Shown here: piece by piece, positions 7,272 through 18,472 of the stretch
Layout of the letters: every line of letters begins with the position of its first letter
How positions within the stretch are numbered: the first letter of the stretch is position 1
From: Oceanobacillus sojae
GTDB taxonomy: Bacteria > Bacillota > Bacilli > Bacillales > Amphibacillaceae
Assembly: GCF_900162665.1 (NCBI RefSeq)
Contig: NZ_LT727813.1
Coordinates: 1,106,603-1,170,602 of the forward strand
Direction: 5' to 3'
Length of the DNA stretch: 64,000 nt
Made by a program: the position numbers and the translations under genes
Notes under the pieces: generated by a model
What the model saw: only the letters and a program-made list of their open reading frames with translations
What the model was told of the DNA's origin: nothing
Database searches by the model: none

Positions 7272-7973
7272 TTAACCCCCATGTATGTCATATAAGCTAT
7301 GTAGGATAATTGAAGGAATGATGGATCTTGTTTTGTACCAAAGAAAAAAAGCAATAAGTGCGAATAAACCAGTTAGAACCGGTTTATCTATATGCAGCAA
7401 AGCAAAAATCACAGATTGAACGATTACTCCTGACCAAACTGGAATAAATCTGGATAAGAAAATCATTGCACAAACCCGATTAACCAGCTCCTCCCAAACA
7501 GGAATGAGAAGGCAAGAATTTAATAAGTACAGTAAAAATTCCGGAAAAGAAATAAATGTATATCTAAACCCTAAGCTATGGAAATTAACTAACTCCTCAT
7601 TCATAAAGAATCTATATTTAAAGAAAATATGGTTGAGATAATAAAATAATAAATAAGCCAATACAATCCAAAAATAGGTAGAGATTTTTTTCATTACCGA
7701 AAAATCTAATACCCTTGTATACAATTTTCTTGTTGGTTTATAGAGGAAGCTAATCAAAATAATAGCAAATGCTGAAACTATTTTAATAGTACTTGGATAT
7801 AAGAAATAAGATTTATTTAAAATATCCCCTGCGCTAAAAATAATTATTACTGCAAATATGTATATTAACAAAGAAGTGGTGGAAATATCCTGCCCCAGTT
7901 TTTTATATTCATCGTACACCTCATATTTATTAGCGAACAATCTAATTATACCCATTTTAGAGAATATTTCCAA
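7272..7973 (-). CDS. CPBP-family intramembrane metalloprotease (CAAX protease-like)
   Basis: 233 residues with about six hydrophobic segments. The three signature motifs are present in the C-terminal half: EELVNR (EExxxR), FALLH (FxxxH) and HSLYD (HxxxD-like). These glutamate/histidine residues form the active site in Rce1/CPBP proteases. In Firmicutes such proteins are often tied to bacteriocin immunity or peptide processing, but no bacteriocin gene is visible here. It lies just beyond the displaced rpsI terminator, in the chromosomal flank of the mobile element. Confidence 0.75.
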   Translation of the reverse strand: MEIFSKMGIIRLFANKYEVYDEYKKLGQDISTTSLLIYIFAVIIIFSAGDILNKSYFLYPSTIKIVSAFAIILISFLYKPTRKLYTRVLDFSVMKKISTYFWIVLAYLLFYYLNHIFFKYRFFMNEELVNFHSLGFRYTFISFPEFLLYLLNSCLLIPVWEELVNRVCAMIFLSRFIPVWSGVIVQSVIFALLHIDKPVLTGLFALIAFFLWYKTRSIIPSIILHSLYDIHGG

Positions 7974-8106
7974 TATAATTTTATTGCAAAAATATAAGTC
8001 GGAGCAAATTCCTTTGATCTTTTATTGAACCAGACTAATCGATATTGTATTCTCATTGTCTTTAGAAGCTGTAAAGCGTGCACCTGTTTCTGTTTTCATC
8101 GCAATC

Positions 8107-8138
8107 AAAAAAGCACTCCCCAAATAAATGAGAAGTGC
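8107..8138 (-). terminator. Probable original rpsI terminator, displaced by the mobile element
   Basis: On the minus strand GCACTTCTC (8138-8130) pairs with GGGGAGTGC (8121-8113), 9 bp including G-U pairs, with loop ATTTATTT, then TTTTTT. It lies 24 bp beyond the left att core at 8162-8175. Removing the element would put it immediately downstream of the rpsI stop codon. Confidence 0.65.
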
Positions 8139-8161
8139 CATAAACATTGATATAACAATGA

Positions 8162-8175
8162 TATTAACGTTTTGA
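8162..8175. repeat. Left attachment-site core (att) of the element
   Basis: TATTAACGTTTTGA, identical to 17621-17634 at the rpsI 3' end. It reads TCAAAACGTTAATA in the direction of rpsI transcription, i.e. the Ser-Lys-Arg-stop end of the ancestral rpsI copy. Confidence 0.8.
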
Positions 8176-8290
8176 GAAATATCTAAATGATTTTTAAGTG
8201 CACTTAATCCATGGAAATCCTTCTATATCAACGTTTCGGCAATTGTTATATGGTTAAAAATGTATGGAAAAGGATTGAAATTGACATTAC

Positions 8291-8310
8291 TTGAACCAAG
8301 TTGCACCATT
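8291..8310. repeat. Left arm-type integrase sites (two 10-bp repeats)
   Basis: TTGAACCAAG followed directly by TTGCACCATT. The same tandem, TTGCACCAAC-TTGCACCAAA, lies inside the right end at 17568-17587 in the same orientation. The integrase has an N-terminal arm-binding-type domain, so these are the likely arm sites. Confidence 0.6.
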
Positions 8311-8369
8311 ATTACAGATGCTAGTTGAATACTATTTGTAAAAATAATATTATATATCAATTTGCTCTT

Positions 8370-9437
8370 CTATCCAACAAGGTGATTTTTTATTTTCCTT
8401 ATTTGTTCTAATTCAATTTGTTTCATAAGCTTCTTCATATACTGCCAATCAATTTTATTTTCATTGGTAACTGGCAACAGTATTTTTTGTTTCTTTAATC
8501 GCTTTGTTCCCATTTTTAATCCATAATCATACTTTTCCTTTTGTAATGTAATCATGTAAGTCAAAAATAATGAACTATACTTATTTCTGTAGTTAGGAAT
8601 TACCCTTCGAGTATCATTTCCAAATAAAGCTTCATATGGATGATAGAAGGCTTGTCCCACTGCACCATTACGATTAACAGATATTATATCACTCGATAAC
8701 GTCTTATTTTCATTGGATACAAAGTATCCTATTCCATTATTAGAAGCTCCAGCCGTTACATAAGGAATGTTTCCCTCTATACGTTCTTGAGCGTATATAT
8801 CTTGTCCCGAAAAAACTTCTGCTATTTCTTGAATTTCAAAAGAATTCCAAGATAACTTATCCCAATTTGATACTTCAATATTATCTATTTCTTTTGCTAA
8901 TTGATTGTACTTATCAGTTAAATACAGTAGTATTTTTTTTCGTTTGCTTTGATATATTTCATACCCTTGTTTTTCCATGTACTCCCAATAGATTCTGTTC
9001 TCATTATTTATAGGCAACATAACACGAGTATTTTTTAATCTTTTTAAAGTGGCTCCATTTCCACCCCAATTAAACTTTTCCATTTGAACCTTTAACAAAG
9101 GAATTAAAAAATAAGCAATATATTTGTTCATTCTTTTATGATTTAAAATTTGAATGTTTTGGCCTGTAAAAAAATCTGTTGGTTGATAAAATACTGTCTG
9201 TGTATCTAAACCAATAGTAATTACATTTCCTTTATTAATTTGGTATTTTTCTTCTTGATCTTTGGTAACGAACATATCAATTCCATTATTTAGTTCAGAT
9301 CTTGTGACATAAGGTATATTTCCAGGTTTTTGGTTAAGCTTATTTTTATCTATTTCACTAGTACTCGATGTTATTGAAAATATTCCATTATCCCCACCTA
9401 TTTGAAAATCATTCCAGCGGATATTATTCATTTTCAT
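8370..9437 (-). CDS. Specificity subunit of a BcgI-like (type IIB) restriction-modification system
   Basis: About 355 residues arranged as two related half-repeats, each with a target recognition domain: GNIPYVTRSELNNGIDMFV in the first and GNIPYVTAGASNNGIGYFV in the second. Each is followed by an aromatic/basic helix (YWEYMEKQG and DWQYMKKLM), the conserved spacer helices of HsdS-type subunits. Two recognition domains predict a bipartite target. The start is taken as ATG 9437 (MKMNNIRW), which overlaps the stop codon region of the upstream nuclease-methyltransferase gene; an upstream ATG at 9470 lacks support. The subunit size matches BcgI B (about 340 residues). It gives sequence specificity to both cutting and methylation. 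Confidence 0.82.
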   Translation of the reverse strand: MKMNNIRWNDFQIGGDNGIFSITSSTSEIDKNKLNQKPGNIPYVTRSELNNGIDMFVTKDQEEKYQINKGNVITIGLDTQTVFYQPTDFFTGQNIQILNHKRMNKYIAYFLIPLLKVQMEKFNWGGNGATLKRLKNTRVMLPINNENRIYWEYMEKQGYEIYQSKRKKILLYLTDKYNQLAKEIDNIEVSNWDKLSWNSFEIQEIAEVFSGQDIYAQERIEGNIPYVTAGASNNGIGYFVSNENKTLSSDIISVNRNGAVGQAFYHPYEALFGNDTRRVIPNYRNKYSSLFLTYMITLQKEKYDYGLKMGTKRLKKQKILLPVTNENKIDWQYMKKLMKQIELEQIRKIKNHLVG

Positions 9438-11349
9438 CACCAAAATCATTAAACAAATACTCTTTCCCATGAAGTACCATATCTATTTCAAAAGAAAGGT
9501 AATCGGAAATATGCTTTTCAAATTCCTCTCTAGAAGGAATTTCTTCATTAAAATAGTAAAATGAGTGTAACCATTCATCTTCAGAATCGATTTTTGTTTC
9601 GACACAGAAATTATTTTCAGCATCAATACGATCAAACCAAACATCTAAAAGATACTGTTTTTTATCTTTTGCTTGAGCTGTTTCTATTAACCCTATATGT
9701 TTGGATATTTTATATCCATCATCTTTGAAGTTTATAAATTTACATTTTTTATTATTATCATGAGGTATTCCACTAGTGAAAATCGCTATACATGGATTGA
9801 CACCAAAATTATAAAAAGTATCTTTATTAAGAGTAATAACTCCTTCAAGAGTATGTTTCTTTAATATGTTTCGTTTAATTTCCTTTTCCACATTCGTTTT
9901 CCCTGTCATAGAACTTTGAGGAACAATGACTGCCACTCGCCCACCTTCTACAAGGGAATCAAGTAAATGTTCAGTGAATGATATTTCATATAGATCAGGA
10001 TTTTTAGATGATCCTTGACTATATGGAGGGTTTAACATACCAACATTACAGCCTTTAAGTTGAATCTCAGATGGATTTAATCTTAAGAAATCAGTATTTT
10101 CAAGGTTACTTTTTCCATCACCACGTAAAATCATATTTGTGGTAGAAATCGTAAACATATAATTTTGAACTTCAATGCCATAAATTTGATCTTTTTTTAT
10201 GCTATTTCTTTTTGTTACATCATCATCATCTGTCTGTTCCAACATATGATGCATTGCAGCAACTAAAAAACCACCTGTCCCACAAGCGGGATCAAATACC
10301 TTATCATCGGATGATATTTCTAATAAATCACAAAATAAATCCGTAATATGTCGCGGTGTTAGAACAATACCCAAGGTTTGTCCATCTCCACCAGAATAAC
10401 TCATAAACTCACCATAAAAACGCCCCAAAATATCCTCTGAAGATTTTGAATATACAATATTAGTATAAACACGATTATATAAAAATTCCGTATAATATTT
10501 TAACGGCGTTTTACCAAGTGATTCGTTGATTTCATTAATTTGGACGGTATTTTTTATGATATCAAATTGACTCATTAATTTGTCTTTCTTAACGGTAGGA
10601 GAAACATTTGACCGTTGTAAATTATTTTCGATTGCACTATATATTTTTTGACCATCAGTCACTGTTGTATCTCCTGTTAAAGATTCAATTGAAAAGCTAC
10701 CATGTTCTGTTTCCCTCAATGCTAATAAGATTCCAGATACAATTAATGGCTTGTCTTTATCCTGAATAGCTCCATAATTTCTCAAATCTTCATGTAATTC
10801 TTGAGCATCTTTCAATATCATTGTTAATTCTTTTTCTTTGTCTGTATCTTCTTCAAGTACTTCTTTTATATAATATTCTTGAATATTTTTATGACTAAAT
10901 GAAATAAATGTTTCAATTTCAGGAAGTTCTTTGTGCCCGCCTCTTTCATCTACAAATATTGGAGAGATATAATGCCTTTTTTCGTTACCTGACACCCCAA
11001 TAGCAAAAATCTTTTTAAAGTTTGTTTCTCGTGCAATATGCTTTGCATAATACAATGCACCATTTACCGCATAATCTCTTACTGAGGATGTTTCCCGAAT
11101 AATTAATCCATCCTCACTTCTATCAATATGTTTGCTCGTATTAAATTTATTTTCTATAATGATAACAAAATCATTGACTACACCAACATATTCAGGTCTT
11201 CCTACATTTCCCGATCCACTTTTTGAAGCAGTCTTTAGAGCTTCATTAATTTCTTTAATATTACTTCCTTGTGGAGACATTATTTTTCCAAGACTTGCTT
11301 CTTTCAATAAATCATATACCCATAAATCTGTACTTGCTTCATTCGTCAT
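9424..11349 (-). CDS. BcgI-like fused restriction endonuclease/N6-adenine methyltransferase
   Basis: 641 residues. The N-terminal domain has a PD-(D/E)xK nuclease signature: PEY at 52-54 and D60 followed by E66-N-K68. The central and C-terminal part is an N6-adenine methyltransferase with SAM motif VFDPACGTGGF (351-361) and catalytic NPPY (440-443). A nuclease fused to a type I-like methylase, plus a separate specificity subunit and no HsdR, is the architecture of BcgI-type IIB enzymes, which cut on both sides of a bipartite site; BcgI A has almost the same length. Ribosome site AGAGGT precedes ATG 11349. The gene overlaps the specificity gene by 14 bp. It is cargo of the mobile element and may stabilise it or exclude phage. 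Confidence 0.85.
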   Translation of the reverse strand: MTNEASTDLWVYDLLKEASLGKIMSPQGSNIKEINEALKTASKSGSGNVGRPEYVGVVNDFVIIIENKFNTSKHIDRSEDGLIIRETSSVRDYAVNGALYYAKHIARETNFKKIFAIGVSGNEKRHYISPIFVDERGGHKELPEIETFISFSHKNIQEYYIKEVLEEDTDKEKELTMILKDAQELHEDLRNYGAIQDKDKPLIVSGILLALRETEHGSFSIESLTGDTTVTDGQKIYSAIENNLQRSNVSPTVKKDKLMSQFDIIKNTVQINEINESLGKTPLKYYTEFLYNRVYTNIVYSKSSEDILGRFYGEFMSYSGGDGQTLGIVLTPRHITDLFCDLLEISSDDKVFDPACGTGGFLVAAMHHMLEQTDDDDVTKRNSIKKDQIYGIEVQNYMFTISTTNMILRGDGKSNLENTDFLRLNPSEIQLKGCNVGMLNPPYSQGSSKNPDLYEISFTEHLLDSLVEGGRVAVIVPQSSMTGKTNVEKEIKRNILKKHTLEGVITLNKDTFYNFGVNPCIAIFTSGIPHDNNKKCKFINFKDDGYKISKHIGLIETAQAKDKKQYLLDVWFDRIDAENNFCVETKIDSEDEWLHSFYYFNEEIPSREEFEKHISDYLSFEIDMVLHGKEYLFNDFGDENE

Positions 11350-11386
11350 ATAATTACCTCTTTTTTATCTAGTATTCTAAGATAAT

Positions 11387-11429
11387 AATATCATACTGTA
11401 TTAACTAAAATCATTATAAGTATGATATT
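11387..11429. promoter_or_regulatory. Inverted-repeat operator candidate upstream of the restriction-modification operon
   Basis: A perfect 11-bp dyad, AATATCATACT (11387-11397) and AGTATGATATT (11419-11429), lies 38-80 bp upstream of the methylase-nuclease start. Inside it, on the minus strand, is TATAAT, so a bound protein would cover a promoter. A second nested pair, ATACTGT (11394-11400) and ACAGTAT (11434-11440), overlaps it. No dedicated controller gene is recognisable next to it. Confidence 0.5.
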
Positions 11430-11478
11430 TCGCACAGTATAGATGACTTGAAGAAAAAAGGGAATGGTTTCTCCCTTT

Positions 11479-11922
11479 TTAAATATAGCCTCTTTCTTTC
11501 AGGCTAGTAAAACTGTTATCACTATTTACCACTAAGTGATCAAGCACTTCGATGCCTAGTAACTTTCCAGCTTCGACTAACCTCTTTGTAACGTTAATAT
11601 CTTCCATCGATGGTTTTATGTCACCGCTTGGATGCTGATGTGCAACAATGACACTAGCTGCGTTATTAAGTATCGCTGATTTAAACACCTCGCGTGGATG
11701 TACAATCGAGGAATTTAACGAACCAACATGACAACGATGAACTGCAACAACATTATTTTTCGTATTTAAACATATAACAAAGAACACTTCACGATCATCA
11801 CGACCAATAAAGCGAGACGCTATCTTTGCTCCGTCTTCTGGACTACGAATGATATAATCAACACCTTCTTCAGCCTCTCTGATAATTTGTTCAATGCGAA
11901 CTACTTCTAAAATGGTTTCCAT
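11479..11922 (-). CDS. radC: Short RadC-family JAB/MPN-domain protein
   Basis: 147 residues, only the C-terminal JAB1/MPN-like part of RadC; the N-terminal helix-hairpin-helix half of the about 225-residue chromosomal RadC is missing. The zinc-site signature is present: AHQHPSGD near residue 95, and a conserved NTKNNVVAVHR region before it. Short RadC proteins are frequent passengers on plasmids, integrative elements and phages; despite the name, a direct repair role is doubtful. It is transcribed in the same direction as the downstream restriction-modification genes, and a hairpin covers its ribosome site. Confidence 0.85.
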   Translation of the reverse strand: METILEVVRIEQIIREAEEGVDYIIRSPEDGAKIASRFIGRDDREVFFVICLNTKNNVVAVHRCHVGSLNSSIVHPREVFKSAILNNAASVIVAHQHPSGDIKPSMEDINVTKRLVEAGKLLGIEVLDHLVVNSDNSFTSLKERGYI

Positions 11923-11932
11923 CTAGATCAAC

Positions 11933-11973
11933 CTCTCTATTATTTTTTTGACCTTTTTGGTCACCATAGAGAG
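11933..11973 (-). promoter_or_regulatory. Hairpin sequestering the radC ribosome-binding site
   Basis: On the minus strand CTCTCTAT (11973-11966) can pair with ATAGAGAG (11940-11933), and TGACC with GGTCA inside it (11949-11963). The 3' arm contains the GAGAGG that serves as Shine-Dalgarno for the radC ATG at 11922, so folding would block initiation. Confidence 0.4.
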
Positions 11974-12274
11974 AATCTTTGCATCGATTAATGTCAAGTG
12001 GCGTTAGTAGCAAAGCTATCGAGTGATTCGTATATGTTTTGAGGAAGCCCAATGAATTAGGGTGCGTTAAAAGCGTTAATTGCTTTCTTACGCACCCTTA
12101 TCCTACTTGGCTGACTCATAACATCCGAAGAACGAAGACCCTTTACTTAATCGATAATTCGTCTCAGCTTTATAGACGAATTAGAAGATTATAATTAGGA
12201 GAGCTGAAAAGGAAAAAAGTAACAACCAAACATAACACACCATCATCTTCTTTTTGACTTAAGAACTATTTAGT
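11974..12274. other. Non-coding region with two strong hairpins inside the element
   Basis: No convincing gene. Two inverted repeats stand out: GGGTGCGT (12060-12067) with ACGCACCC (12090-12097), extended inward by AAAAGC/GCTTTCTT, and TAATTCGTCT (12155-12164) with AGACGAATTA (12174-12183). Neither is followed by a T-run. In ICEBs1-type elements structured single-strand origins (sso) have been found, and this is a candidate for such a function. Confidence 0.4.
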
Positions 12275-12847
12275 TTATTTTTTATAGAACTTCTTTTTAA
12301 TATATTCGTCCGCTTCAATTCCATCTTGGTGGTAAGGATTTTCACCTCTTATGAACAATTTGTTTTCAAGTTCCTTTTCATCAAATTCAACGTTAGGGAA
12401 TAAATGCTCAAAACACATTTCTACTTTTTCTTTAAATATTATTTCTTTCGCTTCTTTCTCATACGCATATCCAATGGAGTCAGCATGAGTCATTTCGTCA
12501 TATCCATTTTCCATCAAGTGGTTTTGATATTCTACAAAAACTTTAAATTGTTCTTCTGCTTTCTTCTCTTTCCACTTTTCATCCAAATATTTGTCTCTAC
12601 GTTGTAATAGGTTTTTTTGTTTTACATGTTCAATTTTTAAAACATCATCTTTTCTATACTTAATATCTGCATTTCTTTTCGGGGGTGGCGATGTAATGTG
12701 CTCAATTTGTAATTCATCTATCCATCTTTTGATTGTTTTCGGAGTCACAATATAAGGCGTCTGATATTTCTCTTCAAAATACATTAAAATTTCCTTTGGG
12801 CTTACTTCATCATTTAATTCATTGATTTTCTTAAGCAAGATAAACAT
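12275..12847 (-). CDS. Putative DNA-binding protein, possible element regulator
   Basis: 190 residues, no family recognised with certainty. Residues about 15-50 look like a winged or simple helix-turn-helix (SPKEILMYF...VTPKTIKRWIDEL), followed by a lysine/glutamate-rich probable coiled coil (70-110) and an acidic C-terminal part. It is transcribed divergently from the mobilization genes, the position occupied by immR in ICEBs1, so regulation of the operon starting at 13031 is a reasonable guess. No ImmA-type protease gene is adjacent. Confidence 0.6.
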   Translation of the reverse strand: MFILLKKINELNDEVSPKEILMYFEEKYQTPYIVTPKTIKRWIDELQIEHITSPPPKRNADIKYRKDDVLKIEHVKQKNLLQRRDKYLDEKWKEKKAEEQFKVFVEYQNHLMENGYDEMTHADSIGYAYEKEAKEIIFKEKVEMCFEHLFPNVEFDEKELENKLFIRGENPYHQDGIEADEYIKKKFYKK

Positions 12848-12905
12848 CCCCTTTGTTTTCTAGTTACACCACACCTCACAAATGTCGTTATAAATAAACG
12901 AAATT

Positions 12906-12982
12906 TCCTTATAATATATACTATCATATAGATATTTAAGTGTAAATATTCTATTTCTATGTCCTTATACAAGTCCGTATAA
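12906..12982. promoter_or_regulatory. Operator-like repeats between the divergent element operons
   Basis: Three similar octamers: TCCTTATA (12906-12913), TCCTTATA (12962-12969) and TCCGTATA (12974-12981). The last two overlap the perfect dyad TTATAC-AAGTCC-GTATAA (12965-12982), which covers the -35 of the rightward promoter. This is the arrangement expected for a repressor site; the binding protein is not known. Confidence 0.4.
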
Positions 12983-12994
12983 TCATTGTATAAT
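12965..12994 (+). promoter_or_regulatory. Promoter of the mobilization operon
   Basis: TTATAC (12965-12970), an 18-bp spacer and a consensus TATAAT (12989-12994) with TG-like upstream bases, 36 bp before the first gene of the rightward operon. The weak -35 within a dyad suggests the promoter is controlled. Confidence 0.55.
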
Positions 12995-13030
12995 TAGAGT
13001 AAGTTAAAAAAGAAAAGAGGTGAGTCGCCT

Positions 13031-13294
13031 ATGCTTAGAGAAAAGCATAATCTATCAAACATGGAGCCGTCATATTCTGATCTAGACAGCTTTCTGGAAG
13101 ATTTAAAAAATGAAATAATCTACAATTCTTTTAGCACACAACTTGAGTTACTAAAAAATTACAGACAGGAACAAAGAACAGACGCAATTACATTAGATTT
13201 CTACAATTATACCTTGGAGTTACCTGGCACTAATGAAGTAGTTGAAGCAATGCGCTGCTTAGAACATGCAATAGAAAAAACAAAAAATAATTAA
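13031..13294 (+). CDS. Small element protein, YdcO-like by size and position
   Basis: 87 residues, acidic, largely helical in appearance, with ribosome site AGAGGTGAG upstream of ATG 13031. It is the first gene of the rightward operon and precedes the HelP-like gene, which is the position and size of ydcO in ICEBs1 (function unknown there). I recognise no motif, so the assignment rests on context only. Confidence 0.6.
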   Translation: MLREKHNLSNMEPSYSDLDSFLEDLKNEIIYNSFSTQLELLKNYRQEQRTDAITLDFYNYTLELPGTNEVVEAMRCLEHAIEKTKNN

Positions 13295-13312
13295 AGAAAG
13301 AGGTAATGCACT

Positions 13313-13699
13313 ATGCCGATTGCAAACGCGTGGGTATTCACGGAGACAAAGTTCAAGGCTGAAGAATTCTTAAATAACACAGGGAACATTTTCAGGTTGG
13401 TATCACAAAGAGCTTATGTGAGTAAAAAAGATCCAGAGGAAAAAGGAGTTACTCTGAATCTGCAAATCACAAAAGATGACACGGATTATGGCGTTGATAA
13501 AAAGACTGGATTCCAACGTGATAACAACATCCTTAACACGTTTGAAGTTACAATCCTAAATAACAAGGAACACCTTGATATTAAAAAAGGGGAATATCTA
13601 CGTTTAGTAGATTATATACCAGAAAAATCCTTTATTATCGGATTCGATTTAATACTCCGATTTAAAGATGTAGAGAAAGTTAATGTTAAAACGAAGTAA
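13313..13699 (+). CDS. HelP/YdcP-like DUF961 protein (helicase processivity factor)
   Basis: 128 residues matching the DUF961 family in length and pattern (MPIANAWVFTETKF start, then a GVTLNLQITKDD segment and a GFDLILRFKDVEKV end). In ICEBs1 the homologous HelP binds DNA and helps the host helicase PcrA unwind the element during rolling-circle replication and transfer. Here it is second in the rightward operon, 18 bp after the previous gene, and its 3' end overlaps the coupling-protein gene by 17 bp, indicating coupled expression. Confidence 0.8.
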   Translation: MPIANAWVFTETKFKAEEFLNNTGNIFRLVSQRAYVSKKDPEEKGVTLNLQITKDDTDYGVDKKTGFQRDNNILNTFEVTILNNKEHLDIKKGEYLRLVDYIPEKSFIIGFDLILRFKDVEKVNVKTK

Positions 13700-15053
13700 G
13701 TTAAGAACACAAAGACAGCAGAATGGAATCTTCATAACTAACATGTTTATATTGCTGTCAATAGTAATGTTGCTTGTAAACATTATTGATTCCCAACTTA
13801 TGTTGGGAATCAATAAACATGTGAATTTATTACTTATCGGTTTTATGATAGTCGTATCTTTGATTCAAACTATCATATGGCTATTTCGAAATAAAGCTCA
13901 TATGGGCATTAAGTATGCTATTTATCACTATTTAACTGTTATAAAAATAAGAAAAGCATTTCTCGATGCTAACTATTATAACAAAAGGTTCTATTTCAAT
14001 AATGAAATAGCTGATTTGCCGAAAGTGAAATTGGAATTTTCCAATTCCTTCTCGAAGGCAACCTTATTTATCGAGAACATCAATATCAATAAAGCCATTG
14101 GTGACATAAATATTTCCTTTGCACTGAGTAATTTTGTAGTTGACGTTGCTTATCTATCGAATGATGAAAATTTCCATGTGTTCGAAATATACGATAGCAA
14201 TATAGACCAACAGTATAAGTTTGATAGTTTTACTTCCTTTAAGAAACAGTCAGATCAAATTGGAAATTACTCTTTGTTTATTGATAAGTCGATTGAGATC
14301 TCTCTATACGGTACATTACTAGTTGGACAAACAGGTTCTGGAAAAACCTATGCACTTTATTCACTCATCCTACAAATGCTTACTAAAAAGGTGCATTATA
14401 ATCTTTACTTTGCTGACCCTAAAAATTCTAGCCTTGCTGTACTTGGAGACAAGATTTCAAAGGAAAATACGGTTACTGAAATAGAGGGTATTATTGAACT
14501 ATTATGGAGATTCAATCAATCAATGATAGAAAGAAAAGAATCTATTAAAGAAAAGCTGAACACTAAGTTGGAAGGAACATATGCCGACTTTGGATATGAA
14601 CCGCATATTTTCATCTTTGATGAATTTGCAAGTTTTCAAACTGTCTTACAGACTATGGAAAAGAAAAAACGTGATGAGGTAATGAAATTATTATCACAGG
14701 TGGTTTTACAAGGAAGACAATTGGGATTTTTCCTATGGATTGTTATGCAAAAATCAGATGCTTCTTTATTGCCTACGAATTTACGTGAGAATTTGCCTGT
14801 TAAATTCGTACTCGGAAATGCTGAAAGTCAAACTTATACAACAGCATTTGGAAATGGTGTAGATATACCAGAGAAAAATTTCAAATTAGGACAAGGTGTC
14901 TTTACTTGTCCAATTATCGCTAAAAGACCTAGACTATGTCATTTTAGTTACTTGAACTTTGACATATTGAAAGCTGTGAATCACTTAAACAAGGGACGGG
15001 GGTTTTGTAAAAACCCCCGTCCCACAAAACAAGAAAACCACAGTTTCCATTGA
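13683..15053 (+). CDS. FtsK/SpoIIIE-type coupling protein (ConQ-like)
   Basis: 456 residues. Two N-terminal transmembrane segments (about 15-36 and 43-66) are followed by an FtsK-type ATPase domain with Walker A GQTGSGKT (about 217-224) and Walker B HIFIFDEFASF (about 306). This matches ConQ/Orf21-type coupling proteins (ICEBs1, Tn916), which bring the relaxase-DNA complex to the conjugation channel. It starts inside the HelP-like gene. The C-terminus is encoded by a GC-rich inverted repeat (14993-15023), the candidate oriT. Keeping its own coupling protein but no channel is a known design among mobilizable elements. Confidence 0.87.
   Translation: MLKRSKLRTQRQQNGIFITNMFILLSIVMLLVNIIDSQLMLGINKHVNLLLIGFMIVVSLIQTIIWLFRNKAHMGIKYAIYHYLTVIKIRKAFLDANYYNKRFYFNNEIADLPKVKLEFSNSFSKATLFIENININKAIGDINISFALSNFVVDVAYLSNDENFHVFEIYDSNIDQQYKFDSFTSFKKQSDQIGNYSLFIDKSIEISLYGTLLVGQTGSGKTYALYSLILQMLTKKVHYNLYFADPKNSSLAVLGDKISKENTVTEIEGIIELLWRFNQSMIERKESIKEKLNTKLEGTYADFGYEPHIFIFDEFASFQTVLQTMEKKKRDEVMKLLSQVVLQGRQLGFFLWIVMQKSDASLLPTNLRENLPVKFVLGNAESQTYTTAFGNGVDIPEKNFKLGQGVFTCPIIAKRPRLCHFSYLNFDILKAVNHLNKGRGFCKNPRPTKQENHSFH
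14993..15023 (+). other. oriT: Candidate origin of transfer (oriT) hairpin
   Basis: GGGACGGGGGTTTT (14993-15006) and AAAACCCCCGTCCC (15010-15023) are perfect 14-bp inverted repeats with a 3-nt spacer. They overlap the last codons of the coupling-protein gene and end 66 bp before the relaxase start. In ICEBs1 and Tn916 oriT lies at this same junction and includes a G/C-tract inverted repeat. No T-run follows, so it is not a normal terminator. Confidence 0.6.
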
Positions 15054-15089
15054 TATATCAACGTTTATTGACTTGAAAGGAGTGATCTC

Positions 15090-16196
15090 TTGTTAGATGT
15101 TCAAGTCGATGAATTTACACTTGTCCTCCAAACCACAAAAAGACCTAATTATATGGAACAATGGGAAGGTATGGCAACTAACATCATTATGGAATTCGTT
15201 AGATTGGCAAAGATAGAACCAGCATTAGGAAGAATCGAAGATGCAACACAGCCATTGCCACAGGGTTATTCAAATGGCTATACATGCGAAGGAGCAACGT
15301 ATTATTTTGCAATTGCATATCATATCGATTTTATTCAGATGGGTATTTGTGTAAAATTTTCTGCTCATGCTTGGATGGAATACAGAAAACAATACGAAGC
15401 ATTGTTTGGTCATTCCATACAGTTACACAATTTCATTGCAAATATTAATAATACTGACCTATACACATCACGACTTTCAAGAATAGATATTGCAATTGAT
15501 TTTATTAATGAGAAGGTTTCCGTAAATACGATTTACAATCAGCTTTCTAAAAAAAATCAAATTGTTAAAACTGCTACTGGCAGAAAAAATCACTCTAATC
15601 TATCTGGAATAACGCAAAACAATATAACTTCAACCTTTTATCTTGGTACAAAGGGTAAAAATATTAAAGCTTTGTTACGAGTCTATGATAAGAAAAAGGA
15701 ACAGTTTGAAACAATGGGTACTCGTTACGAGGAAGCTCTACAATACGATAACTGGGTACGTTTTGAAGCCTCATATAAAGGTAACTATGCACATGATTTA
15801 TCGTATGAATTAGAAAATATAAAAAGCGATACAGAACTGAAGGATATGCTCGTATCAGCTTTAACCGACCGTTATCAATTTTATTATGCTAAAACTGATA
15901 GACTGGCAACTTATAGTAAAAAGATGCTTGATTTGCTTAACCAGAAAAGTTTTATGTTTAGTTCTCCTTCTCCCCGAATGAATTTGTTGGAGCAGTCACA
16001 GAAACATATTTTAAATGGTTCTGGATTATTTCCATACTTGTATAAGATTCATCATATCTGGGGGGACAAAGGTTTAAAAGATTGCTTAACTTTTTTGTAC
16101 GATGAATATGAAAATTATGAGCCAAATGATGACGTGCTATTATGGCTAAAAAAATATTCTGTATTGTATATGAAACAAGGTTATCCATTTAAATAA
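15090..16196 (+). CDS. Rep_trans/NicK-type (MOBT) relaxase
   Basis: 368 residues, starting at a TTG with AAAGGAG 8 bp upstream. Recognisable features of the rolling-circle initiator/relaxase family include the VDEFTLVLQT start, SRIDIAIDF (about residues 131-139) and a LLRVYDKKKEQ block (about 193-203) containing the likely catalytic tyrosine. In ICEBs1 NicK nicks oriT for both transfer and plasmid-like replication. It follows the coupling-protein gene by 36 bp across the oriT candidate. Intact and of usual length. Confidence 0.87.
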   Translation: MLDVQVDEFTLVLQTTKRPNYMEQWEGMATNIIMEFVRLAKIEPALGRIEDATQPLPQGYSNGYTCEGATYYFAIAYHIDFIQMGICVKFSAHAWMEYRKQYEALFGHSIQLHNFIANINNTDLYTSRLSRIDIAIDFINEKVSVNTIYNQLSKKNQIVKTATGRKNHSNLSGITQNNITSTFYLGTKGKNIKALLRVYDKKKEQFETMGTRYEEALQYDNWVRFEASYKGNYAHDLSYELENIKSDTELKDMLVSALTDRYQFYYAKTDRLATYSKKMLDLLNQKSFMFSSPSPRMNLLEQSQKHILNGSGLFPYLYKIHHIWGDKGLKDCLTFLYDEYENYEPNDDVLLWLKKYSVLYMKQGYPFK

Positions 16197-16221
16197 TAAA
16201 TTCAAGGAGGACGATATCTCT

Positions 16222-16419
16222 ATGAGCACCAATACGATTTCAAAAAATTATCCATATCTTTTAACCAGAGAACAAGCGTCTCGTTTCCTAGGTATAGACC
16301 CAAAGTCTTTCGATAAATACATTCGACCACATGAAGAGCTAAATCGCTTTATGGTTGGTAAACAGGAACGATACACAATGAAATCATTAATAAACTTTAT
16401 CGAAAAACACTCCGTTTAA
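16222..16419 (+). CDS. xis: Excisionase-like small DNA-binding protein
   Basis: 65 residues with a MerR/Xis-like winged helix: YLLTREQASRFLGIDPKSFDKYI followed by a basic RYTMKSLINFI. A good AAGGAGG site lies 11 bp upstream. Size, fold and position directly before the integrase gene match excisionases of Tn916-type elements, which bend the element ends and bias recombination to excision. Confidence 0.75.
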   Translation: MSTNTISKNYPYLLTREQASRFLGIDPKSFDKYIRPHEELNRFMVGKQERYTMKSLINFIEKHSV

Positions 16420-16428
16420 ACTGACGAC

Positions 16429-16495
16429 AGTTGATAATATGCTAGTTTCAGAATACAATACAATTGTATTCAACTAGCATCTATCAACTATTTTT
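16429..16495 (+). terminator. Long hairpin/terminator between xis and int
   Basis: Three nested perfect stems: AGTTGATA/TATCAACT (16429-16436, 16482-16489), ATGCTAGTT/AACTAGCAT (16439-16447, 16472-16480) and GAATACAAT/ATTGTATTC (16451-16459, 16463-16471), 26 bp in all, followed by TATTTTT. It should stop or reduce read-through from the mobilization operon into the integrase gene. Confidence 0.7.
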
Positions 16496-16513
16496 ATGAA
16501 AGGGATTGATAGT

Positions 16514-17554
16514 ATGGCTAGTATTGTAAAAAGAGGAAAGTCATATCGAGCACAAGTTTCTTTATACAAGTATGGAGAACATAATAGACTAACTAAAACT
16601 TTTCCAACAAAGAAGGAAGCAAGACTTTGGGGTTTAGAAATGGAAGTAGCGAAAGGAGAAGGTAAAGAGCTTGCTCATAGAACAACTACATTTGCGGATT
16701 TTTTCGAGAATTGGATTTATCTTGTAAAGGTAAATGACGTTAAAGAAACGACATTTCAAAATTACGTTCGTACGTTAGGTATTATTCGAAATTTATTTCA
16801 GGATATCCAATTAAAAGATTTGAATGATATTGTTGTTCAGAAGAAAATTGATGAATATGCTAAAACACACTCTAGGAAGACAACACATGAAGTGTTGCTT
16901 AAAATTAAAACATCTCTACGTGATGCATATGCTCGTGGTTATATTGCAAACGACTTCGCACCATTAGTAAAAACACGTGGTGTAAATCCACCAAAGCGAA
17001 ACAAAGCATTATCTATCACTGACTTTAGAAAGCTTCGTAAATATGTTTTACAGCATCCAGAAGACGAATTTAACTTACTGGTATTACTTGCATTAGAAAC
17101 AGGGATGCGACGTGGAGAACTGCTAGCAATACGCCCAGAGAGTCTATATGAATACGGAATAAAAGTGAGACATTCCATCAGTCCTACTTCTGATGACACT
17201 TCATTAAAGACACAAAATGCAAAACGTGATGTTTCAATTAACAAAGAGGTGTATGAACTTATTCGTCAAATTCCAGTGAAAGAAAATGGTTATATTTTTA
17301 GTTTTGGTGGCTTTAAACAGTCGGAACAATTAACGGAGTTATTGAAGAAATTAGGTATTCAGAAAACAACGTTTCACGGTTTAAGAGATACGCATGCATC
17401 GTTCTTATTTGCTCAAGACATTGATATTGCTTATGTATCTAAACGATTAGGACATATAAATATACAAACGACACAAAATTATTATCTGGAATTAATGCCA
17501 GAAAAAAAGCACCAGCAAGATGCCGATGCTTTAAATCTGTTAAGTGCTTTATAA
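16514..17554 (+). CDS. int: Tyrosine integrase of the rpsI-targeting element
   Basis: 346 residues from ATG 16514, chosen over ATG 16496 because AAAGGG (16499-16504) is then correctly spaced. The N-terminal part (MASIVKRGKSYRAQVSLYK) is an arm-DNA-binding domain, then a SAM-like core-binding domain (about 60-150) and the catalytic domain with TGMRRGE (R199), HGLR (H288, R291), LGH (H314) and NYY (Y324). It should recombine the 14-bp core at the rpsI 3' end with the circular element. It lies at the right end of the element, 14 bp from tandem repeats likely to be its arm sites, as usual for integrase genes. Confidence 0.9.
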   Translation: MASIVKRGKSYRAQVSLYKYGEHNRLTKTFPTKKEARLWGLEMEVAKGEGKELAHRTTTFADFFENWIYLVKVNDVKETTFQNYVRTLGIIRNLFQDIQLKDLNDIVVQKKIDEYAKTHSRKTTHEVLLKIKTSLRDAYARGYIANDFAPLVKTRGVNPPKRNKALSITDFRKLRKYVLQHPEDEFNLLVLLALETGMRRGELLAIRPESLYEYGIKVRHSISPTSDDTSLKTQNAKRDVSINKEVYELIRQIPVKENGYIFSFGGFKQSEQLTELLKKLGIQKTTFHGLRDTHASFLFAQDIDIAYVSKRLGHINIQTTQNYYLELMPEKKHQQDADALNLLSAL

Positions 17555-17567
17555 GATTAACGTTAAT

Positions 17568-17587
17568 TTGCACCAACTTGCACCAAA
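17568..17587. repeat. Right arm-type integrase sites (two 10-bp repeats)
   Basis: TTGCACCAAC directly followed by TTGCACCAAA, in the same orientation as the tandem at 8291-8310. They sit between the int stop codon and the right core. Confidence 0.6.
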
Positions 17588-17620
17588 AAACCTTTGCAAA
17601 CGTTGGTATATCAACAATCC

Positions 17621-17634
17621 TATTAACGTTTTGA
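17621..17634. repeat. Right attachment-site core (att) in the rpsI 3' end
   Basis: TATTAACGTTTTGA, identical to 8162-8175. On the coding strand of rpsI it supplies the codons TCA AAA CGT TAA, so integration rebuilds a complete gene. Confidence 0.8.
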
Positions 17635-18015
17635 AAACTGAGGAGCACGACGAGCTTTTTTAAGACCGTATTTTTTACGTTCTTTCATACGAGCATCACG
17701 AGTAAGGTATCCTTCAGTTTTAAGTGATCCACGATATTCAGGATCTGCTTGTAATAATGCACGTGCGATTCCGTGACGGATTGCACCTGCTTGACCAGTG
17801 AATCCACCGCCGTGTACATTTACAAGAACATCATAAGTTCCTTGAGTTTCTGTAGTAGCAAGCGGCTGGTTCAAGATTAGTAATTGTGTTTCATATGGAA
17901 AATAGTCTCTAGCATCGCGACCATTGATTGTAATGTTTCCTGTACCGGGTACGAGACGTACGCGGGCAGTTGACTTTTTACGGCGTCCTGTGCCGTAGTA
18001 TTGTACTTGTGCCAA
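17623..18015 (-). CDS. rpsI: 30S ribosomal protein S9
   Basis: 130 residues, normal for bacterial uS9, including the [16 protein letters not shown] start and the basic tail ending RRAPQFSKR whose final arginine reaches the ribosomal P site. The last three codons and stop are part of the att core of the integrated element, yet the protein is unaltered. It follows rplM by 19 bp, the conserved L13-S9 operon. Its usual terminator appears to be displaced to 8107-8138. Confidence 0.98.
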
Positions 18016-18034
18016 TTCATTTACCTCCCTTTAA

Positions 18035-18472
18035 TTATCCACGAAGTTCGTAAGCTTCTGGTTTTTGAGCCTGATGGTTGTGCTCAGCGCCTCTATATAC
18101 ATACAATTTCTTCTTCATTTTACGTCCTAAAGGTCCTTTTGGAAGCATTCCTTTGATTGCAACTTCAAGCATTTCTTCAGGATATTTCGTACGCATTTCG
18201 TATGCGTTACGAGCTCTCAATCCACCTGGATGATGGGAATGATTGTAGTACATTTTGTCGTTGATTTTGTTCCCTGATAATTCAATTTTGTCTGCATTGA
18301 TGATAATTACATAATCACCAGTGTCTGCATGTGGTGTGTACGTAGGTTTATGTTTACCACGTAAGATAGCAGCTACTTCGCTTGCTAAACGTCCTAAACG
18401 TTGCCCTTCCGCATCCACAACTAGCCATTTGCGTTCAATATTTGCTTCATTTGCCATGAAAGTTGTGCGCAT
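18035..18472 (-). CDS. rplM: 50S ribosomal protein L13
   Basis: 145 residues of uL13 ([34 protein letters not shown]). The ATG at 18472 is preceded by GGAGGG; a longer frame back to 18499 has no ribosome site. It is an early assembly protein of the 50S subunit. First gene of the rplM-rpsI operon, with its own promoter 114 bp upstream. Confidence 0.97.

Follow-up and report, generated by a model that had tools for sequence, protein, structure and literature searches.

According to the accessible parts of the articles cited here, to which all comparisons with published systems refer, streptococci harbour compact integrative mobilizable elements (IMEs) of IME_Class_1, which combine a MobT relaxase with a TcpA coupling protein, swap modules and lack a transfer channel (Coluzzi 2017, PMC5357655). 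The targets of streptococcal IMEs include the ribosomal protein genes rpsI, rpmG and rplL (PMC5357655). IMESag-rpsI, an element of about 9 kb at the 3' end of rpsI, encodes a tyrosine integrase and a MOBV relaxase (PMC5090054), and two other rpsI IMEs encode PF01719-helicase relaxases (PMC5704250). The present analysis concerns a stretch of 64,000 nucleotides of the Oceanobacillus sojae genome (contig NZ_LT727813.1), referred to as the window, in which a unit of 9.46 kb (8162..17634, no strand assigned) lies between two exact 14-bp direct repeats at rpsI. As a whole, this unit is best explained as an IME, with a probability of about 0.82, and its place in a known class, here in another host group, is well supported. 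It shares with IME_Class_1 the order tcpA-relaxase-xis-int, a tyrosine integrase, a MobT relaxase, the lack of a channel and the swapping of modules (PMC5357655). Unlike IME_Class_1, its host is not a Streptococcus, and it adds a RadC gene, a structured leader and a restriction-modification (R-M) cargo, none of which was found in PMC5357655, where the word 'restriction' occurs 0 times in the main text. With IMESag-rpsI and the other rpsI IMEs it has in common the target at the rpsI 3' end and the tyrosine integrase, but its relaxase is of the MOBT family. No rpsI IMEs of Bacillaceae were found among the matches listed in one open-access library.

The core of the left attachment site (attL), TATTAACGTTTTGA, lies at 8162..8175 (+) and that of the right site (attR) at 17621..17634 (+), where it overlaps the last codons of rpsI (17623-18015, - strand). 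Both cores are identical, and the 14-mer has exactly these two copies in the 64-kb window compared to a mean of 0.00 in 100 shuffles. For the empty site, the two outer flanks of the element were joined by script and compared with the genomes of relatives. Since the joined flanks match without a break in G025 (locus L118; 754 bp, 95.4 %) and in G019 (L119; 535 bp, 95.9 %), the unoccupied rpsI site exists. Across the 28 genomes of the genus, including the element's own, a close integrase lies at rpsI in the own genome and in G012, G021 has a remnant, and five other genomes have only distant integrase matches (24-40 % identity) near rpsI. The left end, comprising ATTAACGTTTTGAGAAATAT and about 170 bp inward, aligns in nine other elements (L027, L042, L047, L082, L094, L095, L098, L108 and L111) and in a remnant in the own genome, with at least one changed base in the core of L082, L098 and L108. 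As the sequence to the left of ATTAACGTTTTGAGAAATAT shows no alignment among the elements, the shared left end provides independent support for the left boundary. A point against this placement is that the own-genome remnant already matches the window from 21 nt outside the core, on its left side, onwards. These results agree with an earlier note, made from the sequence alone, which had described a unit bounded by a 14-bp direct repeat and targeting rpsI and had proposed to look for an empty rpsI site in related genomes and for the same element elsewhere.

The own-genome remnant is a second left-end copy from a related element (G000:C18:11112-11315, L028:9113-9316; 79 % over 206 bp). It adjoins an IS21-like gene pair, as judged by eye, and no match to the element's proteins was found in the 18-kb stretch around it. 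The conserved left-end region (8176..8345, +) contains probable arm-type sites according to the left-end alignment. A 21-nt inverted copy (95 %) of the left-end site 8316-8336 occurs at 16462-16482, directly before int and inside a palindrome; the pair is possibly a shared Xis or integrase site for autoregulation. A terminator-like hairpin, recognised by eye, remains in the left flank outside the element and likewise in L118.

The element has its own integrase and defined attachment sites, and it has its own PF02486 relaxase and a hairpin resembling an origin of transfer (oriT), without any transfer-channel family among the Pfam and NCBIfam matches of the ten element proteins scanned. The tyrosine integrase (16496..17554, +; Pfam, E 7e-15) reads through without a stop. 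An excisionase-like protein precedes it (16222..16419, +), for which the Pfam match to HTH_17 is weak and below the family cut-off (E 0.0018). The relaxase (15090..16196, +), with a TTG start, matches PF02486 (Rep_trans) with an E-value of 5e-17 and 62.6 bits against a cut-off of 29.6, which places it in MOBT. Its motif III residues Y199, K201 and E204, invariant in seven homologous sequences, were assigned by eye to Y252, K254 and E257 of RelSt3 (PMC6499999) and follow the same pattern of tyrosine, lysine at +2 and glutamate at +5. The coupling protein is a TcpA/FtsK-type ATPase (13683..15053, +; FtsK_SpoIIIE, E 3e-7).

In all of these genes, and in the lack of channel genes, the earlier note is confirmed. 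Its HelP-like gene was not recovered: orf128 (13313..13699, +), whose function is unassigned, has no Pfam or NCBIfam match, including none to DUF961, and hhalign found no resemblance to a DUF961 protein of the co-resident integrative and conjugative element (ICE; E 0.68). The assignment to the ICEBs1/Tn916 lineage was overstated. No helix-turn-helix (HTH) Pfam match was found in the window relaxase, whereas the relaxase of the resident ICE has HTH_3, and these two relaxases align around motif III only (hhalign probability 7 %, E 0.005). The missing HTH, which RelSt3 needs for oriT binding (PMC9371924), is also a point against the explanation as an IME. No relative of the window relaxase was found in the PDB below an E-value of 0.9, and none in phage records. 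Like Tn916, ICEBs1 and ICESt3, the element combines a MOBT relaxase and a TcpA coupling protein with a GC-rich hairpin with a TAA-type loop beside the relaxase gene (PMC9371924). Unlike them, it is without channel genes, a relaxase HTH and a DUF961 protein, and GTAA replaces CTAA in the loop.

This oriT-like hairpin (14994..15022, +), which the earlier note had overlooked together with RadC and the leader, spans the end of the coupling gene and lies between the coupling ATPase and relaxase genes. It was aligned for the window and 13 relatives (14 sequences, 11 distinct), leaving out L070 and L147, which were missed by the search pattern. In the loop GTAA (15007-15010), G, T and the first A are invariant and the next A is present in 13 of the 14 sequences. 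In the alignment, 96.4 % of the cells are paired compared to at most 52.7 % in slid versions, and five of ten pairs have changed on both sides among the 11 distinct sequences; 0 of 500 shuffles reached these values for pairing and both-side changes. ICEBs1 and ICESt3 are nicked at CT'AA in the loop of a comparable hairpin (PMC9371924). Compared with this MOBT pattern, the hairpin and its location beside the relaxase gene agree, but the loop is GTAA and not CTAA. Because the hairpin covaries and the CT'AA site of ICEBs1 and ICESt3 is known, GT'AA on the + strand is the putative nic site.

From this anatomy and the empty sites, the integrase and the Xis-like protein would recombine the 14-bp cores, releasing a circle and leaving rpsI intact. 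The MOBT relaxase would then nick the hairpin located between its gene and that of the coupling protein, with GT'AA as the probable site, and the TcpA-type ATPase of the element or of a helper could pass the strand with the bound relaxase on to the channel of an ICE of the Tn916 type. One such ICE lies on the same chromosome. Another Rep_trans gene and an AAA_10 gene of the VirB4 type were found in the own genome within a Tn916-type ICE gene set, which comprises two DUF961 genes, an FtsK/TcpA-type gene, a MOBT relaxase with HTH, ArdA, TcpE, VirB4-type AAA_10, lysozyme/NlpC and TcpC. This resident ICE is a candidate helper for transfer of the 9.46-kb element. A point against it is that its far end was not found: the 218 nt that follow its integrase share no exact repeat of 13 nt or more with the stretch examined on the left of the ICE. 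The reading frame that follows this integrase is presumably the C-terminus of GuaA.

The mobility of the element, including excision and helper-dependent transfer, is thus predicted from sequence features, and the unit could instead be a formerly mobile island that keeps its repeats and genes and no longer excises or is never mobilised. Several relatives at rpsI have decayed, with the integrase in pieces away from contig ends (L029, L091, L093, L094, L107, L108, L114 and L115), and the bare left-end remnant beside the IS21-like pair would fit such a fate. However, the genes of the element are open, including an integrase without a stop, the site is empty in two close relatives, the attL and attR cores are identical and the relaxase motif residues are conserved, all of which makes an immobile island improbable.

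The cargo of the IME is preceded by a noncoding leader (11923..12215, -) with evidence from conservation, folding and covariation. The leader has a length of 293 nt, is located between orf190 and RadC immediately before RadC and the cargo, and reaches to the start of RadC. Long invariant blocks are present in an alignment of ten sequences, and 14 sequences yield a mean column identity of 91 %. The z-score for folding is -6.0 for the + strand and -6.3 for the - strand. In 78 pairs of 13 copies, the mean divergence of the leader is 0.097 compared to a proportion of synonymous differences (pS) of 0.373 in the first 90 codons of RadC, i.e. about a quarter, and it is below pS in 77 of the 78 pairs. 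Therefore, recent spread alone is not a sufficient explanation for the conservation of the leader.

In the alignment made with MAFFT and not fitted to any structure, which comprises the 14 closer copies, 97.3 % pairing was observed compared to at most 45.4 % for slid versions; six of 77 pairs show changes on both sides, in 17 cells, and 0 of 500 shuffles reached this number of cells. The alignment fitted to the structure model, which adds more distant copies found by the covariance model (13 sequences, 12 distinct), has 94.6 % pairing compared to at most 42.1 % for slid versions and 26 of 77 both-side pairs in 44 cells, reached by 0 of 500 shuffles. The constraint on the leader and its structure are shown by these data, and several points weigh on the other side. 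The amino-acid sites of RadC change less (proportion of nonsynonymous differences, pN, 0.051) than the leader, the six both-side pairs of the unfitted alignment were reached by 9 of 500 shuffles, and the 26 of 77 pairs come from an alignment fitted to the structure model and hence leaning towards it.

The leader is closely tied to RadC. In 17 of 19 distinct loci with a leader match, a RadC N-terminus faces the leader at close range, the exceptions being L112 and L115. With the covariance model, the leader or its core was found in 14 of 159 genomes of the family, including the own genome. In 398 genomes of the class, a plain DNA search gave no matches except the copy of the own genome and two short ones (24 and 32 nt). 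Among 41 matching records, at least 27 are Enterococcus plasmid records, with identities of 83.7-91.5 % among the matches listed, from which 11 of the 41 are missing; Geobacillus plasmids match with 72 % identity along a stretch of about 130 bp. No RadC was found beside the leader match in L177, L178 and L180-L182 within the stretch examined. Without the rest of the leader, its central palindrome (about model positions 92-182, of variable length) occurs in L178-L182, with a RadC match nearby only in L179; the copy in G466 (L182) is about 3 kb away from a three-piece relaxase of the kind described below.

The leader matches no known RNA family in Rfam. No Rfam family reached its gathering score in 7900-18100, and four snoRNA and viral-family matches in 11850-12300 (E 0.59-6.4) were rejected as chance-like. 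The radC RNA motif RF01754 is a structured RNA candidate named after radC in Proteobacteria (PMC2864571); the leader has no match to it in 11850-12300 at E-values up to 10. Another system for comparison is EGeRS1 of the pLS20-family plasmids, a structured leader of establishment genes whose mechanism was unknown to its authors (PMC8708921). Both are long, conserved, structured and noncoding, and EGeRS1 is located directly before the ribosome-binding sites of the establishment genes (PMC8708921). Unlike for EGeRS1, the transferred strand would be the template strand here if GTAA is the nic site on the + strand, and there is no sequence match: the pLS20 stretch with EGeRS1 (NC_015148 40000-58000, L169) gave no leader match with a profile at E-values up to 0.1 and none with the covariance model at E-values up to 1.

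Most likely, the leader controls the expression of RadC and the defence genes. How it would do so can be explained in different ways. As an RNA, it could be a 5' untranslated region regulating RadC and the cargo, as proposed as possible for EGeRS1, a reading that we regard as plausible although somewhat short of an even chance. It is consistent with the leader ending at the RadC start, with the position of the likewise structured EGeRS1 directly before establishment genes (PMC8708921), and with an excess of G-U over A-C cells (33 to 16, at pairs with a Watson-Crick majority) on the RadC-sense strand. However, the alignment behind this ratio was itself fitted to the RadC-sense strand, and the unfitted alignment has 16:13; the pLS20 stretch examined provides no sequence or model match. 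Alternatively, the leader could act as DNA, being a single-strand origin or promoter (sso/Frpo-like) that is active while the transferred strand is single-stranded and would initiate both the synthesis of the complementary strand and an early expression of RadC and R-M genes. The authors of PMC8708921 argue against a single-strand promoter for EGeRS1, one of their reasons being that the strand transferred there is the non-template one. For the present leader, the stable fold on both strands fits this alternative, and if GT'AA is nicked on the + strand, the transferred + strand would be the template for RadC and the R-M genes on the - strand. Against it, a promoter consensus scan of 11850-13100 (nine sites compared to a mean of 6.0 in shuffles, not informative) gave no promoter-like - strand site inside the leader, and the RadC operon would be late to enter, as the leader follows the putative nic at a distance of about 6.7 kb. 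Moreover, the nicked strand itself is only a prediction and the G-U and A-C counts are undecided between the strands. We regard a single-strand origin or promoter as less likely than not. Equally tentative is a broader proposal that the leader is a new class of structured nucleic-acid switch. It would sense the arrival in a new cell, through single-stranded entry DNA or the absence of a donor repressor, and turn on RadC and the plugged-in defence system, which would bring interchangeable R-M systems into action in the proper order during transfer; it would have spread with RadC across Bacillaceae IMEs and Enterococcus and Geobacillus plasmids.

Behind RadC, the cargo is a BcgI-like R-M pair, and its expression is most likely under the control of the leader. 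The fused restriction-methylation subunit, of type IIG/IIB (9424..11349, -), matches the PADLOC profile REase_MTase_IIG with an E-value of 8.4e-172 and N6_Mtase with 4.7e-39. A separate specificity subunit with two target-recognition stretches (8370..9470, -) matches Methylase_S (E 3e-36) and PADLOC Specificity_II (E 1.9e-46). Like BcgI, the pair thus consists of a fused nuclease-methylase subunit and a separate two-domain specificity subunit. Both proteins are covered by their PADLOC profiles, REase_MTase_IIG with 637 positions and Specificity_II with 341, which correspond to the lengths of the BcgI subunits. An R-M cargo had already been recognised in the earlier note. RadC itself (11479..11922, -) has a JAB domain (Pfam RadC, E 3e-42). 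Its match ends at codon 102, or begins at 101, in L039, L040, L166 and L167 as well as L042 and L095, and recombinase-like genes adjoin the shortened RadC in L040 and in L166 and L167, two Enterococcus plasmids where RadC matches only to codon 102. The break near codon 102 looks like a recurrent landing site, as for the Tn554-family transposons, which insert in radC. Between the leader and the coupling gene lie orf190 (12275..12847, -), a possible DNA-binding regulator with a 43 % identical relative on an E. faecium plasmid annotated as MerR family, and orf87 (13031..13294, +), of unassigned function and with relatives in two loci.

An integrase search of genome contigs provided 79 loci from the best 80 of 88 relatives; together with L027, L029 and L031, 82 loci were searched for the other genes, most of them reaching 10 kb or less per side and many shorter. 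The order RadC - orf190 - orf87 - orf128 - FtsK - relaxase - Xis - Int - rpsI recurs in L041 and L043, and in L044 without detected orf190 and orf87. Compared to the window, L027 has 94 % identity in the integrase and 89 % in RadC but only 38 % in the relaxase, which shows module exchange. No relatives of VirB4, TcpE or the putative VirB6 (named by position only) of the resident ICE were found in the 82 loci, and lysozyme/NlpC relatives occur in four of them (L056, L066, L086 and L104), all beyond rpsI. In L031/L048:8398-10732, two rpsI-type integrases, 50 % and 78 % identical to that of the window, stand in tandem before rpsI as stacked elements. L051-L063, L065 and L066, from many enterococci and their kin, contain similar units of MOBT relaxase, Xis and Int without an adjoining coupling gene; for several, no rpsI ORF was detected within the stretch.

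For the cargo survey, open reading frames (ORFs) were listed in 16 loci, and defence-like ones were picked by eye for PADLOC, so that the tally is biased upward; the remaining loci, mostly enterococcal and streptococcal, were left out. PADLOC matches at E-values up to 1e-5 occur in 12 of 18 elements (the 16 loci, the window and L147; L040 was left unscanned), namely the window, L027, L042, L044, L045, L047, L050, L094, L097, L098, L111 and L147. Proteins of type I, type III and type IIG as well as SIR2-HerA proteins are among these matches; L094, L098 and the ATPase of L050 gave weak or generic matches. A Pfam scan of some ORFs of L041, L043, L082, L095 and L108 gave no R-M domain. The left ends of L041 and L043 were not found, and their cargo genes may be chromosomal.

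The window relaxase is one intact ORF. In ten related elements, several of them at rpsI, the MOBT relaxase is divided into three overlapping ORFs (L027:14653-15810, L039:3602-4759, L040:4549-5706, L045:8317-9474, L047:8304-9467, L068:1562-2719, L097:8301-9470, L147:12001-13158, L155:1501-2649 and, on the - strand, L152 9239-10387). ORF1 has about 163 residues in frame 0, ORF2 about 64-73 in frame +1 and ORF3 about 160 in frame 0. Pooled pN/pS ratios in the own frames are 0.14, 0.09 and 0.18, and every other frame has a ratio of at least 1.2. Random pseudogene decay was rejected because each region is under purifying selection in its own frame only. Programmed frameshifting was also considered, and no slippery sequence was found by eye. 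The start of ORF3 lies on the stop of ORF2 in a 4-nt overlap (ATGA in nine elements, GTGA in one), and AGAGGA occurs upstream of it in 10 of 10. Given the missing slippery sequence, the kept ORF3 start, the overlap and the upstream AGAGGA, separate coupled translation of the three ORFs would be the preferred explanation.

Following the scheme of PMC6499999, motifs N' and I were placed by eye in piece 1, the catalytic tyrosine in piece 2 and motif IV in piece 3. Of eight sequences, which do not include L147 and L152, seven have the tyrosine motif RIYDKKEEQ and L047 has RIYNKKEEQ. A tree of the N-terminal part of 20 relaxases unites the ten three-piece forms in one group (100/99), with a long-branch warning. 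They are rare, occurring in 1 of 398 genomes of the class and 4 of 159 of the family. L152 has a distant integrase (23 %) nearby, and L147 is on an E. faecium plasmid; in E. faecium the three pieces are annotated as three hypothetical proteins. No article naming a split relaxase was found by a phrase search in one open-access library, and no description of the leader or the three-piece relaxase was found among the matches listed there.

The IME in O. sojae extends an element class known from streptococci to another group of Firmicutes, and a candidate helper in the same cell and a testable oriT can now be named. In its relatives, three separately selected frames dividing the active-site motifs would be a natural test of the assembly of a relaxase from pieces. 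The leader represents the new part, a strongly constrained noncoding structure which Rfam does not contain and which is tied to RadC and an exchangeable defence cargo. With it, the timing of the R-M system of an incoming element becomes testable, a system whose expression could kill if early and fail to protect if late.

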